38,612 nt of DNA, from NCBI GenBank assembly GCA_021297855.1, contig JAJTHM010000077.1, positions 1 through 38,612 on the forward strand, read 5' to 3'. Below the pieces are notes generated by a model, which saw only the letters and a program-made list of their open reading frames with translations, had not been told where the DNA came from and did not search any database. Made by a program: the position numbers and the translations under genes. How positions within the stretch are numbered: position 1 is the stretch's first letter; every line of letters starts with the position of its first letter. The stretch comes from Sphingobacteriales bacterium. GTDB lineage: Bacteria > Bacteroidota > Bacteroidia > Chitinophagales > JADJOU01. This document shows, in pieces, positions 1,446 through 16,199 of this stretch.

Positions 1446-3792
<2,347 letters not shown>

Positions 3793-8334: not shown

Positions 8335-9780
8335 ATGTTGAAAGAAAAAGTATTGAAAAGGATAAAGTACATAGTGATTGTTTTCAGTCTAGTAGTCAAT
8401 ACGAGCCCTAGCTTGTATAGCCAAGACAAGGTCTCGGCATTCAATAGACTTTCACCAGATCAGGTATTGACGATTATGCGGAAATTTCATCCCGTCATAC
8501 GTCAAGCGAATATTCAAGTAGAAATTTCCGAGAATGATATTCTCAATAGTCGGGGAAGTTTTGATCCGTTTCTTACTGGAAAAATGGGCGCGAAAAATCT
8601 AAAACAAGAAGACTATTATCAAACTAAAGAGTTAGGATTAGAAATACCTACATGGTACGGAATCGATTTTGAAGCGGGTATAGCCAATATGACTGGACAG
8701 CGGCTTGATAATGCAGTTACCACTGGGAATACTTCCTTTGTAGGGGTGAATATTCCCTTATTGAAAAATTTAGTGTACGATAAGCGCAGAGGGTATCTAG
8801 AGCAAGCAAAAATCATGAATAGATTATCTAATCACGAACAGCGAAAAATAGTCAACGATGTGATGCTCGATGCTATGAAAGCCTATTGGGATTGGGTCAA
8901 GGCTTATGAGACTTATAAAATATTAGATGATCTTGTCGATAACAATATCGCTCGATTGAAATTTGTCAATCAAAGCATAGGCTATGGCGAGCGACCTGCC
9001 ATAGATTCGGTAGAAGCAAAAACACAGTTGCTCAGTTTTCAAATCGAAAAAGAAAATCGATGGACTGACTTTTTAAACGCAGGAAATGAGCTCTCCATCT
9101 TTTTGTGGAAAGAAAATCAAACGCATTATAGTCTTCCTCCTTCCGTGATTCCCAATGAAAATTGGGATCAGAAATTTCGATCAGCGCAGCCGAACTTAAA
9201 CTATGAAGCTTTGATGAATGAAGGAACTGCGAATCATCCTGAAATAAGAATGTACGAAGAACAGTTGAATTTTTACCGCGTCCAACGCAGGATGTATTTT
9301 CAAGACCTCTTGCCAAAATTGGATTTAAATTATAGAATGCTGAGCAACACTGGACCTCAAAATTTTTCTGTCAATGAGGTGAGGCCTTTTACAGAGAATT
9401 ATCAATACAGTCTCAAGCTCGATATACCCTTGCGATTGTCCGAGGGGCGGGCGAACTACAAGTCTGCAAAACTGAAAATCAACTACGGTGAATTAGCTCT
9501 TCAACAAAAAGCCCAGAGCGTTTCGCTCAAAATCAAAACCTATTTCAATAGCTATCTCAATTTCGAAAAACTGAATCGCCTCCAATACGAAAACTATGAA
9601 AACTATTCGACTATGGTACGCGCAGAGGAAACCAGATTTAAAAATGGAGAAAGCAACCTCTTCACTATCAACGCCCGTGAAATCAAAGCCCTCGAAGCCT
9701 TAGAGAAAATGATAGAACTCAAAACCAAATACTTCAAATCTATCTATGAAGTTAAATGGAGTGCGGGGGTTTTGAAGTGA
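8335..9780 (+). CDS. TolC family outer-membrane efflux protein
   Basis: A 481-residue outer-membrane channel. The N-terminus carries a signal peptide ending near SPSLYSQ (about residue 29). Two repeated long-helix halves follow, with the family's QANIQVEISENDILNSRGSFD segment near residue 60 and the second-half KLKINYGELALQQKAQSVS near 385. It is the last gene of the ABC-HlyD-TolC operon and would supply the outer-membrane duct for the exported substrate. Several plausible shadow frames on the other strand were discarded. A weak AT-rich stem (9784-9801) follows but lacks a T-tract. Confidence 0.92.
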   Translation: MLKEKVLKRIKYIVIVFSLVVNTSPSLYSQDKVSAFNRLSPDQVLTIMRKFHPVIRQANIQVEISENDILNSRGSFDPFLTGKMGAKNLKQEDYYQTKELGLEIPTWYGIDFEAGIANMTGQRLDNAVTTGNTSFVGVNIPLLKNLVYDKRRGYLEQAKIMNRLSNHEQRKIVNDVMLDAMKAYWDWVKAYETYKILDDLVDNNIARLKFVNQSIGYGERPAIDSVEAKTQLLSFQIEKENRWTDFLNAGNELSIFLWKENQTHYSLPPSVIPNENWDQKFRSAQPNLNYEALMNEGTANHPEIRMYEEQLNFYRVQRRMYFQDLLPKLDLNYRMLSNTGPQNFSVNEVRPFTENYQYSLKLDIPLRLSEGRANYKSAKLKINYGELALQQKAQSVSLKIKTYFNSYLNFEKLNRLQYENYENYSTMVRAEETRFKNGESNLFTINAREIKALEALEKMIELKTKYFKSIYEVKWSAGVLK

Positions 9781-9847
9781 GGATACTAAATTTGTTTAGT
9801 ACAAAAAAGAATGCGAACTAAAACTTCAATTTTTTTTGAATAATTGT

Positions 9848-9855
9848 TATATTTG
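9848..9855 (+). promoter_or_regulatory. -7 box for the toxin-antitoxin pair (TATATTTG)
   Basis: TATATTTG matches TAnnTTTG and lies 19 bases before the antitoxin ATG at 9874, so the pair can be transcribed independently of the exporter operon upstream. Confidence 0.45.
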
Positions 9856-9873
9856 TATATCATAATAAAATGT

Positions 9874-10080
9874 ATGGATGCAATTATAATACCCGCAGAA
9901 AAAAAGAATAAGGAAAAACTTATTGAGTTTTTGAAATCCTTAAAAATTAGTTTTGAAACAATTACAAATGTTGAAGATTCAATATATAGTAAGGAGTTTC
10001 AAAAATTGCTTGACCAAAGTCTTAAACAAGCTGATGAAGGAGAAGTACGAAAGGTGCATCTTGATGAGATATGGAAATAG
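9874..10080 (+). CDS. Antitoxin of a Txe/YoeB-type toxin-antitoxin pair
   Basis: A 68-residue protein starting MDAIIIPAEKKNKEKLIEF. The ATG at 9874 is preferred over an upstream TTG because a -7 box lies just before it. It resembles the small antitoxins (DUF2683-like) found before Txe/YoeB toxins in Bacteroidota: a short strand and helix at the start, then a charged C-terminal helix (KLLDQSLKQADEGEVRKVHL) that would wrap the toxin. Its last ten bases overlap the start of the toxin gene, as expected for a co-translated pair. Function is deduced mainly from the partner. Confidence 0.75.
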   Translation: MDAIIIPAEKKNKEKLIEFLKSLKISFETITNVEDSIYSKEFQKLLDQSLKQADEGEVRKVHLDEIWK

Positions 10081-10331
10081 TATTTACGGACATTGCTTAC
10101 GAACATCTACAATATTTTCAATCACAGAATCAGACTATTATTTTAAAAAAGGTTAGAGAAATAATTGAATCGATTACTAAATCACCTTTTATAGGAATAG
10201 GTAAACCAGAGCCATTGAAATATAAATATTCAGGTTGCTGGAGTCGCAGAATTTCTAAAGAGCATAGATTAATCTATAAAGTGGAAGATAATTGTTGCAC
10301 TATTTTATCATTGAAAGGGCATTATGAGTAA
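10071..10331 (+). CDS. Txe/YoeB family mRNA-cleaving toxin
   Basis: An 86-residue RelE-superfamily endoribonuclease, which would cleave mRNA on the ribosome when released from its antitoxin. The C-terminal half is characteristic: KPEPLKYKYSGCWSRRISKE followed by HRLIYKVED and a terminal GHYE, corresponding to the catalytic Arg/His and the C-terminal His-Tyr of YoeB. It overlaps the antitoxin by ten bases. Length is standard and no damage is seen, so the pair looks intact. Confidence 0.87.
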   Translation: MEIVFTDIAYEHLQYFQSQNQTIILKKVREIIESITKSPFIGIGKPEPLKYKYSGCWSRRISKEHRLIYKVEDNCCTILSLKGHYE

Positions 10332-10475
10332 TAGCAGAAAAGCAAATTATATTAAACCGAATTCTAAAATATTACAAAAATATATACTGCCCATAATTAT
10401 TCTTATTGAGGAACAGCCTGTCCCGATTTATTTTCGAGAAACTTAGAATTAATCGGTTCGGTATAATCATATAGT

Positions 10476-10688
10476 ATGGGTGTAAAATATGCGATAGTTA
10501 TTTACTGGAGTGCAGAAGACAATAGTTTTATAGCTGAAATACTAGAGCTGTCTGGGTTTATGGCAGATGGCGAAACATATCAGGAAGCACTAAAAAATGC
10601 AGAGATAGTAGCAAATGAATGGCTAGAAACTGCCAGAAAACTCGAACGACCAATCCCTGTGCCTAAGGGAAAATTAATTTATGCGTAA
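10476..10688 (+). CDS. HicB-like antitoxin domain protein, no HicA partner
   Basis: A 70-residue HicB-fold protein: a three-stranded sheet with the hallmark EDNSFIAEILELSGFMADGE, then the helix YQEALKNAEIVANEWLETAR, ending in a proline-rich tail (RPIPVPKGK). HicB proteins neutralise HicA mRNA interferases, normally encoded next door. Neither the 144 bases upstream nor the 79 downstream has room for an intact HicA, so this is an orphan or acts alone. It lacks the C-terminal DNA-binding domain of longer HicB proteins. Confidence 0.8.
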   Translation: MGVKYAIVIYWSAEDNSFIAEILELSGFMADGETYQEALKNAEIVANEWLETARKLERPIPVPKGKLIYA

Positions 10689-10767
10689 AAGAAGAATCAA
10701 ATTTGCTCTAATGTAGTTAATCAATTTAAATCAACATCATTTTAAAGCCTAGTTTGTATTGAAATAT

Positions 10768-11610
10768 TCAAGAATATTCTATCATAGTTTTGCAAATATC
10801 CCTGACCACTTCTCTATGAGCAGAGGAATATTCTTTCCAAGCAAGACCATTCTTTTTCATGTCAATAATATCTACAATAGTCCCTCCAGGTATAATAGAC
10901 CTCCCATCTTTCTCAAATCCTATAATGTAAATTAAATCCGCTATCTCAACGGCTAAGTCTATATCATGGGTAGAGAAAATGACAGTATTCATATCATTTT
11001 GGTCTGCTATTTTTCTAAAACAATCTTTGACTTCTATGATATTGACCACATCTAATCCTGAAAATGGCTCATCAAAAACCATAAAATGATGGGAGCATAA
11101 GAGCTGTTCGATTATAGCTACTCTTTGTTTTTGACCGCCAGATAATTGATTTGTATATAGATTCCGTTGATCTGCTAATCCCCAATTCTTCAGATAATCT
11201 TCTATTAAATCTTCGGATGCTGACTTAGTATGTCCTCCCATGTTACATGCAGAGAACAACATATCTTTGACAGATTGATTACGCGACAGTGGATAATTTT
11301 GTTGTACATAGCCAACTTCTCCTTCACTTACAGTCTTATATTCTCCAGGGTTAGCAATATTCGGTATGGTTACTAATCCGTTAGTTGGAGCTACTAAACC
11401 TGTTAGGATTTTAAATAAGGTAGACTTGCCTGAACCAGATCGACCCAGTACCGCAACTATCTGACCCAATGGATCCATTTTAGTACTTGTCAAATTATGT
11501 ATTTCAAAAGGAAGCTTATCATTCCCTACATTTCGCAATATTTTTTTATTCTGAATAGAATACTCAAGATTTTCTATACTGATAAGTTTTTCTGCGATTG
11601 AATATTCCAT
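10768..11610 (-). CDS. ABC importer ATPase (SsuB/TauB type)
   Basis: A 280-residue ATPase with all motifs intact: Walker A GRSGSGKST (about residue 57), signature LSGGQKQRVAI (about 157), Walker B HFMVFDEP and the switch histidine in FSTHD. It would power the permease encoded two bases upstream. It is the last gene of the five-gene minus-strand operon that begins at 16097. The N-terminal 30 residues and C-terminal 60 residues are longer than the core domain. Family resemblance is to the nitrate/sulfonate/taurine importers, but no substrate can be assigned. Confidence 0.9.
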   Translation of the reverse strand: MEYSIAEKLISIENLEYSIQNKKILRNVGNDKLPFEIHNLTSTKMDPLGQIVAVLGRSGSGKSTLFKILTGLVAPTNGLVTIPNIANPGEYKTVSEGEVGYVQQNYPLSRNQSVKDMLFSACNMGGHTKSASEDLIEDYLKNWGLADQRNLYTNQLSGGQKQRVAIIEQLLCSHHFMVFDEPFSGLDVVNIIEVKDCFRKIADQNDMNTVIFSTHDIDLAVEIADLIYIIGFEKDGRSIIPGGTIVDIIDMKKNGLAWKEYSSAHREVVRDICKTMIEYS

Positions 11611-11612
11611 GT

Positions 11613-12392
11613 TTATTTTCTTTTGTTATTGACTGGGAATTGATTGATAACAAATCTTAGAAACATATCAATAGAAATCCCAATGACAAAAATGACTATC
11701 TGTAAAGCAAAAATTTTGGGAAAATTTAATCCACGATTGCTATCGGTAATCAATGCACCTATGCCACCAAATGATTTATACATAGCCTCTACTGATACGA
11801 GCATCATTAGCATAATACTTATATTTTGTCGAATAATTTCTAACAAATAATCAGCTCTATCCTTTACTGCTACTTCCCATAAGATTCTCCATCGCCCCAT
11901 TTTCATAGCTTTTCTTCTATTGATATCTTCTTCGGGAATATCATGGATAATACTAGCCAAAGCAGTGATGAAATAAAATGACATAAAAATAACCAACATG
12001 GCTATTTGCAGCGAACGACCACCTCCAGTAGCCGTAGTTAAAAATAAGGTAAATCCTTGAATTGGATTATTTCTTAATTGCGACAAAAATTTTACAATCG
12101 GCTTAAAGAAAGGTATTGTAGAAAAATAGGCCAATAAACTAGATATAATTATTCCTATAAAAATAGCTTTACCACATAGAGCTAAACTGCTTAGTATTTG
12201 ATAAAATAACCCATTGTACCATAATTCGTTTAGTGCTATAAGTACATCAGATAACTTAGGAAAAAAACTTGATTCACTAACACCAAACTGCCAAAACAAA
12301 AGTAAAAACCCTAGCTGAAAAAGAGCAATAGTGTACAGTACAGTATTATCCACATACTCGAATGGGGTAAAAATTTTTCTTAGAAAATTCAT
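11613..12392 (-). CDS. ABC importer permease (SsuC/TauC type, BPD_transp_1)
   Basis: A 259-residue inner-membrane permease with about six hydrophobic helices. The cytoplasmic coupling (EAA-type) loop is visible as RRKAMKMGRWRILWEVAVKD, just before the last two helices, and the C-terminal SFGGIGALI segment is typical of SsuC/TauC-like proteins. It lies between the binding protein (10 bases upstream) and the ATPase (2 bases downstream) and would form a homodimeric channel with them. Nothing is missing. Confidence 0.9.
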   Translation of the reverse strand: MNFLRKIFTPFEYVDNTVLYTIALFQLGFLLLFWQFGVSESSFFPKLSDVLIALNELWYNGLFYQILSSLALCGKAIFIGIIISSLLAYFSTIPFFKPIVKFLSQLRNNPIQGFTLFLTTATGGGRSLQIAMLVIFMSFYFITALASIIHDIPEEDINRRKAMKMGRWRILWEVAVKDRADYLLEIIRQNISIMLMMLVSVEAMYKSFGGIGALITDSNRGLNFPKIFALQIVIFVIGISIDMFLRFVINQFPVNNKRK

Positions 12393-12402
12393 GTATATCT
12401 TA

Positions 12403-14250
12403 TTATTGTAATAAGGATATCTCTACTCTTCTATTTTTAGCTTTTCCTTCTGATGTAGCATTGTCACCTACTGGACTTGTATCACCTAATCCATCTACAC
12501 TAAATCGTTCTGAAGGGAAAGTGTTTTTAGATCGTTGAATAAGCCAAGACTTGACAGCCTTAGATCTACGAAGACTCAAAGCTAAGTTTTTATCTGCATC
12601 TCCTACATTGTCCGTATGTCCTGTTATATTTACTCTCGCTTTTTCCGCTATATTTAGTGACGTAAACAACTCTTCTAAAAGCTTTTTACCTTCTGGGAGA
12701 ATCTCATCTGAACCAGTTTTGAATTGAATTTGAAATGATTTTTTGGCAAATACTTCGCCACTATTATTGGAATAGTTGACTGCTTCTGTTTTTCCTTCGA
12801 AAGTATTTAAATTATTAAGATAAGAAAGGTCTACAGCTTCTTCGTAGGTAGTCAATTTCTGTACATTATCCATAAACCCTGCGGGATTCAATGTTTCAAT
12901 TACATTAGAAAAATAATCATATACTGATTTATAATAATTATTACCGCCTTTGATGCCATAATATTTTTGATTATCTGCTAGGTTAGCCATCTGCGTTCCT
13001 CCTATTAGAGTTTGAACTCCATTTACATTAGTAAAACTGGCTCCGTTTGGTTTAGCATATCGATACCAATCATCAGCCGTTTCACTACAGTCACCTGTTG
13101 AAGCACAGAATACTTTTGGGGCCAACTGTGTAGCAAATTTAAACCAATTATCGTATTGCTTGATTTGATTACTAGCTGTCAAAGATGCTTCTAAAAATTT
13201 CTTGACTAAATCGCTGTTTTCCTTCATCCATTTATCACATCCTACGATAACTGTCGGCATTTGATTCGGGTATTGTGCCGTAGAAATGACACGAACCATA
13301 TTCATTTTTTTAGCCATTTGAAGATCACCTGGGAACCATGTAGCAGCACCCTCAATTTCCTTGGTAATCATTTTGCCAGTATAGTTTCCTTTGGCATCCT
13401 TTTCTTTTAAATCTACTTTCTTGTGAGCAATAGCATCTTCGGCGGCTTTCAAAAAGTCATCATCTGGTGCCGCTGTAAAGTTGATAGCATCAGGGTCATA
13501 AGCACTCGGGTCTGGATTGACTTTAATACCATTATCTGCAGCATATCGCACTGTCAATGCCCAATCTCCATCCCCAATTACTGCAGATATCACAGATCCT
13601 TTGAGTGATTGTGGATTTGTTTTCCATCTTTCAGGACCGAATAAGCAATCCTCGCCCATGGAGAATCCAACATTACCAATGATTTTTAAATTATATTCTT
13701 TGCCCACAGCTTTTTCTATTTGCTCATTCATAGCAGAAATATAAGCAGGAGCTCCATCGCCCATAATGGTTACAAAATGAACGCCAGTCGAAGGATTTTT
13801 ATTTCCTTCGGAAAATTCTTTTATAAATGCTAATTGCTGCGTTTTCATATCTGCAACAGAATTATTTACAAGAATTTTTAGATTAACATTATTGACTTCC
13901 ATCAATGAGTTTTTCGCTGTTTTTAATCCGCCATTTGCCGAGAATATACCTGCATTGCCAAACCAAATCCATTCCATGAGTCTAATCTCAGGTTGTGAAC
14001 TGACTTTGTCAGAAAACTCAATATCATTGACATCCAACGTAGGTAATTCGGTAGCTGTCATATTGGAGTTAATCCCATCATTTCCTGCTGAGAATTTTGC
14101 TATATCCTTTGAAGTGTCGCTTTTAAGACCAGGTATCCAACCAAAATGAGATGCTGCCCAAATGAGTGTAATGATAGGCAATGCAAGAATAATTGCTTTG
14201 ATAGGCCATCTAAGTCCAGCCCAGATGGAGGTATTGTTAGAATTTTCCAT
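12403..14250 (-). CDS. Membrane-tethered solute-binding protein fused to an OmpA peptidoglycan-binding domain
   Basis: A 615-residue fusion. Residues 14-33 form one transmembrane helix with a short cytoplasmic tail and no lipobox or cleavage site, so the protein should stay in the inner membrane facing the periplasm. Residues about 90-470 resemble a periplasmic substrate-binding protein of the SsuA/nitrate class. Residues about 497-615 are an OmpA-like domain: VNITGHTDNVGDADKNLALS, with LRRSKAV and a final KAKNRRVEI, which carry the Asp and Arg that bind meso-diaminopimelate in peptidoglycan. The binding part has several Cys (GEDCLFG, VGCDKW, CASTGDC), unusual for an importer subunit. Permease and ATPase genes follow at once. 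I infer a transporter pinned to the cell wall; the ligand is unknown. Confidence 0.85.
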   Translation of the reverse strand: MENSNNTSIWAGLRWPIKAIILALPIITLIWAASHFGWIPGLKSDTSKDIAKFSAGNDGINSNMTATELPTLDVNDIEFSDKVSSQPEIRLMEWIWFGNAGIFSANGGLKTAKNSLMEVNNVNLKILVNNSVADMKTQQLAFIKEFSEGNKNPSTGVHFVTIMGDGAPAYISAMNEQIEKAVGKEYNLKIIGNVGFSMGEDCLFGPERWKTNPQSLKGSVISAVIGDGDWALTVRYAADNGIKVNPDPSAYDPDAINFTAAPDDDFLKAAEDAIAHKKVDLKEKDAKGNYTGKMITKEIEGAATWFPGDLQMAKKMNMVRVISTAQYPNQMPTVIVGCDKWMKENSDLVKKFLEASLTASNQIKQYDNWFKFATQLAPKVFCASTGDCSETADDWYRYAKPNGASFTNVNGVQTLIGGTQMANLADNQKYYGIKGGNNYYKSVYDYFSNVIETLNPAGFMDNVQKLTTYEEAVDLSYLNNLNTFEGKTEAVNYSNNSGEVFAKKSFQIQFKTGSDEILPEGKKLLEELFTSLNIAEKARVNITGHTDNVGDADKNLALSLRRSKAVKSWLIQRSKNTFPSERFSVDGLGDTSPVGDNATSEGKAKNRRVEISLLQ

Positions 14251-14289
14251 TTAAAATTTATTGTTTAGTTTAATAATTGGTTTAATTTT

Positions 14290-15405
14290 TTAGTCTATTA
14301 ATTTGAAGCTAGGGTCAGCCATTTCTTCAGGCTTTAGATCATAACTAGCATCACTCACCTCACTCACATTGAGGGATTTTAGTCTACCACTATCGATTTG
14401 TTTTACAAATTCTTCGAGCTCAGATTGGCTGGCTTTAATACCAAGTACAGCTCCTTTATTCCCATCTAAAAAGTCAATATTTGAACGAATATTTGCAATA
14501 TTATTGCTGATGGCAGAAGACGCAGCGTCCATTGCTTCCTTGAATCTCCAGCTTTCTTTTATATTGAATACATCGGAGAGTCCTTCCGTTGCGGATTTCA
14601 TCTTATCTGTAGCCTCTAGCTTTTTAGAGATTATAGAAATACTGCTTGATAATGCATTGACATAAATTTTGGCCGCTGATTCATTGTCTTTTAATATTTC
14701 AAACACCTTTGCAAATTGATTGGCGTATTGAGCATAAACTTTGGCATTTTCTTCGGAAGCTTTACCTTCTTGCATTCTTAAATTTGCAGAAAGCCTTGTT
14801 TCATTGGCTTCTCTCTCCTTGCTGCGCGCTTTTTCTTTGTTTCCATCTTTCGCTAGGGATTTAGCTTCTTCGTCCATTTTCGCAGCTATTTCAGTTAATG
14901 ATTTGACTTGATTATACTTTACTTCTGCTTCTCGTTTAGAATTTTCAGAACTACTAATCATATCTAATTTTACCCCATCTACAGACGCTATCTTTGATTT
15001 TACTTTTCTGAGCGTCTGATTAGCATCTTCTTGCAATATTTGTAATGTTTCAATGGGATTATTTCTAATGATTGATTTCTCTCCCTTAAATAATATCATA
15101 GAACCGGCATTATATATTAATGAAATTATCTTTGGATATAATAAAAGCAAAACGATAATCAGTATAGACATAGCTATAAGCAAAAGGGTCTGACTTGCAA
15201 ACATAATTAAGCTGGGCAAATACTTAAAAAACAAAAGGGCAACTCCAACTAATCCTCCCCAGAATACAATTTTTGCAACAAGGCTATTTGGATTGGATAG
15301 TTTTTGAGTTTGTTGTTTAACCTGATTGCCAATGACTTGAAAAATTGGAAGAGACTTTAGTTCTGCGGGAATAGTTATTGGTCGGGTTGCTAATTCTGTA
15401 GACAT
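14290..15405 (-). CDS. Membrane-anchored coiled-coil protein of unknown function
   Basis: A 371-residue protein I do not recognise. Two hydrophobic helices (about residues 45-65 and 70-95) are followed by a short amphipathic stretch and a long, strongly helical, charged region (about 125-300) rich in Lys, Glu and Ala, for example EIAAKMDEEAKSLAKDGNKE, with heptad-like spacing. The helical part resembles PspA/IM30-like envelope proteins in composition only, and no family is claimed. It sits second in the operon, 39 bases before the binding-protein/OmpA gene and 8 bases after the first gene. It could be a scaffold or gating subunit on the cytoplasmic face of the transporter. Confidence 0.7.
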   Translation of the reverse strand: MSTELATRPITIPAELKSLPIFQVIGNQVKQQTQKLSNPNSLVAKIVFWGGLVGVALLFFKYLPSLIMFASQTLLLIAMSILIIVLLLLYPKIISLIYNAGSMILFKGEKSIIRNNPIETLQILQEDANQTLRKVKSKIASVDGVKLDMISSSENSKREAEVKYNQVKSLTEIAAKMDEEAKSLAKDGNKEKARSKEREANETRLSANLRMQEGKASEENAKVYAQYANQFAKVFEILKDNESAAKIYVNALSSSISIISKKLEATDKMKSATEGLSDVFNIKESWRFKEAMDAASSAISNNIANIRSNIDFLDGNKGAVLGIKASQSELEEFVKQIDSGRLKSLNVSEVSDASYDLKPEEMADPSFKLID

Positions 15406-15413
15406 ATTATAAA

Positions 15414-16097
15414 TTAAAGTGTTTTATTAACTAAAGCTATTATGTGATTGATTTCGGCAGATATTTTTTCAATAGCATTTGTGCCAGCGGCTATTTTGGT
15501 TTGGACTTCTTTTATCTTTGGTTCGTATTTAAATTCTAAATCTTTAATAAAACTACCTGTCTGGGCAAATTCAGATTGCAATTTTTTTATGTTATCTTCT
15601 ATTTCTTTCTTTTTTGATACTAGAAATGCAGATTCATCTTTCTTTTTAGCATCTATAGTTTGTATTTCATTTTTTTTAGATTTTACATCTTCATTTAATT
15701 GAGTTAAAATTTTATTAAGATATCCTTGTCCAGAATTCACAATAATGTCTTTGCTTAGATTCCCTTTGGAAGCTACTTTCATTGCTGCAAAAGTCGCCTT
15801 CAGATTCGTTTCGTTTACACCACCCATTTCTTCCATTGCATCCCATACTTCTATGAAATCAATTTCAGTTGAATTAATAGAATCGAGATACTTATATATT
15901 TTGTCAATTATATTTTTTGACTCCTTTTCCAATAAGGCTGGGTCAGATATTGAAAATTGATTTACAATAGTTTTATTTTCTTGCTCAGTGGGTAGTTCTT
16001 TGGATTGAATTTTATTGCTTACCGCTGATTCTTCAATATACTCGTCGGTAAAAAAAATTTTTTTTAACCCTGCGAATTTTGATTTTTTTTCTTCCAT
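15414..16097 (-). CDS. Cytoplasmic coiled-coil protein of unknown function, first gene of operon
   Basis: A 227-residue soluble, highly charged protein that I do not recognise. Residues 1-70 are low in order; 70-125 look globular and helical (STEIDFIEVWDAMEEMGG); and 125-227 form a long coiled coil rich in Lys, Glu and Gln (NEDVKSKKNEIQTIDAKKKD). No signal peptide or membrane helix is seen. It leads the five-gene operon and ends 8 bases before the membrane coiled-coil gene, so the two may interact through their coils. Its promoter lies just upstream. Confidence 0.7.
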   Translation of the reverse strand: MEEKKSKFAGLKKIFFTDEYIEESAVSNKIQSKELPTEQENKTIVNQFSISDPALLEKESKNIIDKIYKYLDSINSTEIDFIEVWDAMEEMGGVNETNLKATFAAMKVASKGNLSKDIIVNSGQGYLNKILTQLNEDVKSKKNEIQTIDAKKKDESAFLVSKKKEIEDNIKKLQSEFAQTGSFIKDLEFKYEPKIKEVQTKIAAGTNAIEKISAEINHIIALVNKTL

Positions 16098-16119
16098 TAA
16101 TATTAGTAATCAGTACACA

Positions 16120-16146
16120 CAAATTTAGATAAAAAAAATTATTCAA
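16120..16146 (-). promoter_or_regulatory. Promoter of the ABC-OmpA operon
   Basis: On the minus strand this reads TTG (CAA at 16144-16146), 16 bases, then TAAATTTG (CAAATTTA at 16120-16127), a good match to the Bacteroidota -33/-7 pattern. The leader to the ATG at 16097 would be about 15 bases. Confidence 0.55.
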
Positions 16147-16199
16147 TTGAAAAATGTAACTTTTATCCAAGTAAACCCCTGAATAATAAGATTTTTCTC

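Follow-up and report, generated by a model that had tools for sequence, protein, structure and literature searches.

A five-gene operon encoding a predicted ABC importer with an OmpA-type binding protein and a PspA-like protein, recurrent in Bacteroidota and huge phages

The operon and its genes

The 38,612-nt contig JAJTHM010000077.1 of a Sphingobacteriales bacterium (GenBank assembly GCA_021297855.1), referred to here as the window, carries on its minus strand, at 10768-16097, five complete open reading frames (ORFs) without frame breaks. They are transcribed in the order P5, P4, solute-binding protein (SBP), permease and ATPase, with intergenic gaps of 8, 39, 10 and 2 nt. An earlier note, made from the sequence, had described five tightly spaced genes including an intact permease and ATPase of an ATP-binding cassette (ABC) importer and a tethered SBP with an OmpA domain, and this was confirmed by ORF, Pfam and AlphaFold analysis. 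A single promoter for all five genes, also claimed in that note, is plausible only, with one candidate -7 box before P5. The features of the operon are as follows (TM, transmembrane; HMM, hidden Markov model).

16120..16127 (16127-16120), minus strand: candidate Bacteroidota -7 promoter box TAAATTTG of the operon, upstream of P5
15414..16097, minus strand: P5, 227-aa soluble protein, first operon gene (family alignment)
14290..15405, minus strand: P4, 371-aa membrane-anchored PspA-like protein (AlphaFold pLDDT 73.7; hhalign to PspA)
15208..15288, minus strand: predicted first TM helix of P4, residues 40-66 (AlphaFold)
15109..15201, minus strand: predicted second TM helix of P4, about residues 69-99 (AlphaFold, hydrophobic helix within 71-115; hydrophobic sequence)
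14566..15057, minus strand: predicted long antiparallel hairpin of P4, residues 117-280 (117-186/190-280; AlphaFold)
12403..14250, minus strand: SBP-OmpA, 615 aa, with N-terminal TM anchor and C-terminal peptidoglycan-binding domain (domain calls, AlphaFold)
14146..14208, minus strand: predicted TM anchor of the SBP, residues 15-35 (AlphaFold)
12811..14001, minus strand: TauA/NMT1-type solute-binding domain, about residues 84-480 (TauA 6ssy structure match, HMM match)
12406..12729, minus strand: OmpA-like peptidoglycan-binding domain, residues 508-615 (PF00691, TagL structure match)
11613..12392, minus strand: ABC permease of the SsuC/TauC/NrtB class, 259 aa (PF00528; TIGR01183, weak; phrog_6743, E 4.5e-16)
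10768..11610, minus strand: ABC ATPase, 280 aa, with all catalytic motifs (PF00005, 91.7 bits; motifs read in the sequence)

The predicted importer

The assignments of the ATPase, permease and SBP-OmpA protein are clear. The ATPase contains Walker A (GRSGSGKST), signature (LSGGQ), Walker B (FMVFDEP) and switch (STHD) motifs. The permease scored 29.4 bits against PF00528 (cut-off 26.4), and the SBP scored 22.0 bits against NMT1 PF09084 (cut-off 20.5) and, at its C-terminus, 64.7 bits against OmpA PF00691. The AlphaFold model of the SBP comprises a helix at residues 15-35, a TauA-type domain and an OmpA domain. A structure search with this model matched the solute-binding domain to TauA 6ssy with a Z of 27.7 and a root-mean-square deviation of 2.7 over 290 residues; the nearest folds were TauA, CmpA, NrtA and SsuA, and an HMM match to TauA was also obtained (E 8e-7). 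With these ATPase motifs, a BPD_transp_1 permease and an NMT1/TauA-type fold, the transporter has the parts of a NitT/TauT-class importer. A desulfonating enzyme (SsuD/TauD or similar), as expected of a TauABC/SsuABC system, is absent from the window operon and its adjoining genes. Sensing of envelope strain and transport of wall-turnover products, both raised in the earlier note, found no direct support, the SBP fold being of the taurine/sulfonate/nitrate class.

The OmpA domain matched TagL 7bba with a Z of 18.5, and residues D547 and R562 of this domain are invariant among 21 diverse homologues. The conserved Asp and Arg of OmpA-like domains are known diaminopimelate ligands; D547 and R562 are these wall-ligand residues in the SBP.

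P4 and P5

P4 is predicted to consist of two N-terminal TM helices, a long helical hairpin and a conserved C-terminal tail. Alignment of P4 with Bacteroidota PspA by hhalign gave a probability of 94.5% (E 7.7e-8), with P4 90-374 placed on PspA 1-255, the whole PspA length; the same comparison gave 12.7% when the P4 alignment was reversed as a control, and 1.1% with P5. One P4 relative was matched by the PspA model PF04012 at E 9e-4, below its cut-off, and neither P4 nor P5 reached the cut-off of any curated family. P4 is named PspA-like rather than a PspA member because the Pfam cut-off is unmet and TM helices are present. The kinship with PspA/IM30 that the earlier note proposed checking for both coiled-coil proteins is supported for P4 but not for P5.

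P5 is composed of an amphipathic N-terminus (KSKFAGLKKIFF), a conserved middle domain and a C-terminal coiled coil, and solved relatives were limited to generic coiled coils. Its identity as a PspA homologue is unsupported. Kinship of P4 and P5 with XpaC/TelA was also considered and rejected, the sole Pfam TelA or XpaC match being one weak TelA match in one P5 member.

Conservation of the gene order

An alignment of the SBP alone was used as the query for locus scans, which returned 50 loci in IMG/VR and 117 candidates in GTDB genomes, of which 80 were kept. Profiles of the five proteins were then used to annotate the loci. The full order P5-P4-SBP-permease-ATPase was found in 69 of 80 bacterial loci, mostly from Bacteroidota, and in 39 of 53 viral loci, with three more viral loci permuted in the manner of phage G; several incomplete loci are truncated at contig ends. 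A further scan yielded 18 divergent viral contigs, up to 513 kb in length. By profile, 13 of them have all five genes in order; several of the rest have an ORF of the right size in the empty slot. That over 100 loci retrieved by the SBP alone show this five-gene order is more than chance, although some of the viral ones are near-copies (L062 of LR756500 and L078 of phage G, for example). This neighbourhood comparison had been set beforehand as the test that could refute the earlier note, and the coiled-coil genes are kept with the transporter. Viral contigs had given no matches when scanned with the window permease or SBP as single sequences, the window copy diverging too far; an alignment of five SBP sequences was too diverse as a query, and a plasmid search with the window permease gave no match.

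The spacing of P5 and P4 is almost constant, close to 8 nt in nearly all loci, with medians of 7-8 nt. Six Saprospiraceae-type genomes carry SBP, permease and ATPase genes with a non-adjacent P4, and in all six P4 is encoded elsewhere in the genome.

The module in huge phages

A tblastn search of phage records with the window permease gave one match, the 462-kb uncultured phage LR756500, which carries the five module genes in the same order as the window. The SBP search of phage records added Bacillus phage G and the 735-kb phage LR756501. The latter has all five genes in canonical order; phage G has all five in the permuted order permease-ATPase-P5-P4-SBP-SBP, its P5 and P4 being assigned by profile and position. 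The two SBP-OmpA genes of phage G, gp249 and gp250 (L005 7320-10525), are in tandem and 47% identical and share one permease/ATPase pair. Pairwise similarity between window and phages extends to the coiled-coil proteins in two phages (P4 against LR756501, for example, at E 5e-8).

The SBP of the 735-kb phage matched 15 Lak megaphage records. Prevotella phage Lak-A1 (541 kb) encodes P5, P4, SBP-OmpA, permease and ATPase in canonical order, with profile E values of 1.5e-22 for P5 and 3e-24 for P4 (database size set to 100). TAG is reassigned in Lak-A1. None of its five module genes (L161 5370-11736) uses in-frame TAG; a neighbouring 505-aa ORF (2021-3538) uses nine. Translation of the module early in infection, before recoding, would fit this pattern, which does not prove it.

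Terminase large-subunit domains were found in 9 of 16 records tested (LR756500, phage G, LR756501 and six IMG/VR contigs of 166-362 kb), indicating that these nine are tailed phages and not mis-sorted chromosomes. The marker was Terminase_6N; Terminase_6C missed even Lak and was therefore uninformative. The remaining viral contigs carry their phage label from IMG/VR. Among four named huge phages tested, AAA_lid_6 was found in phage G only, unlinked to the module there. The module of one viral group is interrupted between SBP and permease by a gene for an ATP-dependent DNA ligase (L041 9904-11301).

An unrooted tree was built from joined SBP, permease and ATPase sequences. Huge phages and viral contigs form one large clade in it, separate from two bacterial clades (Flavobacteriia and Cytophagia type) and from a Chitinophaga/Saprospira clade. 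On a deep branch the window copy is paired with L069, a viral contig of 122 kb, at 53% identity; the branches lying furthest out are those of phage G and LR756501. Since no root was inferred, the tree carries no direction of transfer. L135, from a Limnohabitans (Comamonadaceae) metagenome-assembled genome, sits in the Flavobacterium clade and is probably a mis-binned contaminating contig.

Genomic setting and neighbouring genes

Compared with a sister species, the operon lies in an insertion together with toxin-antitoxin-type genes.

9779..16187, no strand assigned: 6.4-kb insertion with toxin-antitoxin-type genes and the operon (empty site in sister-species genome G002, 31-bp gap)

The bounds were set by alignment to G002, and the TolC-type and GH20 genes that flank the insertion are adjacent in two same-genus genomes, G002 and G003. 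P4 is absent from all four same-genus genomes. Besides the five-gene operon the insertion holds two plus-strand genes, one for a toxin of the YoeB family (PF06769; 10071-10331) and a small one that is HicB/UPF0150-like (10476-10688); a toxin partner for the latter is not obvious. A prophage origin was considered and rejected, as no phage genes were recognised within the 6.4 kb, and direct repeats sought at both insertion ends gave none that was convincing. The window copy is divergent and horizontally placed, and appears to be new.

Outside the window, a protein of about 166 aa with several TM segments and no known family lies repeatedly beside P5 or P4 in bacteria, for example upstream of P5; it was not found in the window's genome. 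Its gene was located as follows.

L091 5470-5970: multi-TM neighbour of about 166 aa
L021 6332-6838: multi-TM neighbour of about 166 aa
L023 4737-5240: multi-TM neighbour of about 166 aa

A CbbX-type AAA+ gene (AAA plus AAA_lid_6) adjoins the operon in Flavobacterium and Aquimarina (L102 11478-12995, L082 4318-5784) and is a candidate Vps4-like partner. The window operon has no AAA+ ATPase gene; on another contig, G000:C113, a 901-aa open frame has two AAA_lid_6 matches. At many Flavobacterium loci (L112 4917-5777, L020 8336-9193) the operon lies directly 3' of atpG, the ATP synthase gamma subunit gene, on the same strand. In other Bacteroidota, P5-P4 pairs lacking the ABC genes lie near Na/phosphate-symporter-like and DASS-type transporter genes (L026 6239-12321, L027 2937-7949), which suggests that the pair may be a more general transporter-associated scaffold.

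Proposed working of the module and its alternatives

The gene set, its conserved order, the predicted folds and the intact catalytic motifs point, with what we regard as an even chance of being right, to a five-part envelope module in which a taurine/sulfonate/nitrate-class type-I ABC importer at wall-anchored sites is coupled to a PspA-like membrane scaffold. The SBP would be held between the inner membrane, by its TM helix, and the peptidoglycan, by its OmpA domain, and would capture a small solute and pass it to the permease, which the ATPase would drive. On the cytoplasmic side P4, as a PspA/IM30-like hairpin on two TM helices, may assemble into a polymeric patch by which the membrane around the transporter is stabilised or clustered. 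P5 would be a soluble partner or adaptor of P4, the two together forming a cytoplasmic membrane-bound scaffold. Bacteria have the module as a chromosomal operon; megaphages, carrying the same module, would probably use it to maintain the inner membrane and nourish the cell through a long infection. We think it possible, if a little less than evenly likely, that the complete module recurs among the largest phages, including Lak, phage G and those of 735 and 462 kb, which would install it soon after infection to hold the host inner membrane and wall while feeding the host, and that it is exchanged between phages and Bacteroidota.

Several observations weigh against a coupled importer and scaffold. 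Window P4 had no PF04012 match and did not reach the Pfam PspA cut-off, the best of 22 family members giving E 0.0037. The AlphaFold model of P4 is of only moderate confidence (pTM 0.49), and in a structure search with it unrelated coiled coils scored as well as Vipp1/CHMP1B (Z 10-11); because helical hairpins match many unrelated chains, this search does not discriminate. P5-P4 pairs without ABC genes occur in other Bacteroidota (loci L025-L027), so the function of the pair need not be transport and the pair is broader than the transporter. In the viral contig L073, which has SBP, permease and ATPase genes, P4 was not found in its 479 kb. As the earlier note had stated, no metabolic gene lies in the window operon or adjoins it, the flanks being GH20 and TolC-type genes, and a literature search found no experiment on any part of the module.

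The same parts could instead form an envelope sensor and actuator, in which the SBP-OmpA protein and the ABC proteins sense a periplasmic solute or the state of the wall or membrane, ATP hydrolysis controls P4 assembly for membrane repair or remodelling, and net import is secondary. The PspA-like character of P4, the P4/P5 pairs that occur without a transporter and the lack of linkage to metabolic genes agree with this, as do the CbbX-type AAA+ genes that flank the operon in Flavobacterium and Aquimarina, like ESCRT/Vps4 pairs (PMC11237479). However, the solute-binding fold, the permease and the full ATPase motifs resemble a working importer, the window operon has no AAA+ gene, and among the four huge phages tested AAA_lid_6 occurs only in phage G and is unlinked there; we consider such a role unlikely.

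A plain nutrient importer of the taurine, sulfonate, nitrate, bicarbonate or thiamin-precursor class, with the coiled-coil neighbours as mere stability factors and the phage copies as ordinary auxiliary metabolic genes, would explain why the SBP fold is nearest TauA, CmpA, NrtA and SsuA and why the permease gives weak NtrB/SsuC-class matches. We regard it as improbable: genes of catabolism or biosynthesis linked to the operon are absent from the window, an SBP anchored at both ends is unusual in the NitT/TauT class, and phages and bacteria that are very distant from one another keep two additional proteins in the same order. A part in phage-host warfare can also be envisaged, the phage module blocking superinfection or countering membrane-depolarising defences and the bacterial copies being captured and defensive. 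Membrane integrity is maintained by PspA proteins, the module is widespread among huge phages, and the window copy is an accessory insertion by toxin-antitoxin genes and groups with a viral contig. Many bacterial copies nevertheless have common chromosomal genes as neighbours, for instance atpG in many Flavobacterium, and PADLOC gave no system match beyond generic domains; we judge this role very unlikely.

If the coupled module is real, an ESCRT-III/PspA-like scaffold would be tied physically and genetically to a solute importer, a link so far suggested only from bacterial neighbourhoods. Its conservation in phages of about 460-735 kb, with hosts as unlike as Prevotella and Bacillus, suggests that these phages bring their own machinery for the host envelope and for uptake.

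Comparison with known systems

The bacterial gene context has already been noted as a prediction. Genes for an ABC ATPase, a permease and a PBPB-OmpA protein may stand in one operon with those for TM-bearing PspA and Snf7 homologues and an AAA+ ATPase, and it was suggested in the section 'Associations with Vps4...' that the remodelling of membranes is connected with the transport of solutes (Ravi et al. 2024, mSystems, PMC11237479). The window shares with that operon type the ABC ATPase, permease and PBPB-OmpA genes beside a TM-bearing PspA/Snf7-like gene, but lacks the AAA+ ATPase. The earlier note's statement that no described system has all five parts must therefore be narrowed: the bacterial context was described, whereas nothing named there is recognisable as P5, for which no similarity to PspA was detected. 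The main text of PMC11237479 makes no mention of phages. In the searchable main texts of the Lak and huge-phage papers no ABC transporter, permease or OmpA protein is named, while supplementary tables may hold such annotation; one of these papers names a Lak magnesium transporter. The literature search found neither the module reported from phages nor P5 described as its constant partner. Both the presence of the complete module in several megaphage groups and the constancy of P5 appear to be new here.

With the NitT/TauT importers TauABC, SsuABC and NrtABCD the module shares the binding-protein fold (TauA, Z 27.7), the permease class and the ATPase architecture. It differs from them in an SBP that is predicted to be TM-anchored and has a C-terminal OmpA domain, in the lack of catabolic genes and in two extra coiled-coil proteins. 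P4 resembles PspA/IM30/Vipp1, the bacterial ESCRT-III proteins, in its alignment over the full PspA length and its predicted long helical hairpin, but it has two predicted N-terminal TM helices and falls below the Pfam PspA cut-off, and the operon lacks pspF/B/C partners. The conserved Asp and Arg are shared with the OmpA-like wall anchors Pal, MotB, TagL and YiaD; in the window, in contrast, the OmpA domain is fused to a solute-binding domain and is not part of a lipoprotein, stator or type VI secretion system anchor. In the accessible part of a 2018 survey of viral ABC proteins, ABC transporters are named only in eukaryotic viruses (PMC6163359). The likeness to those cases is that the ABC protein is virus-encoded; relative to that part of the survey, what is added here is a complete importer, together with its putative scaffold, in huge tailed phages.

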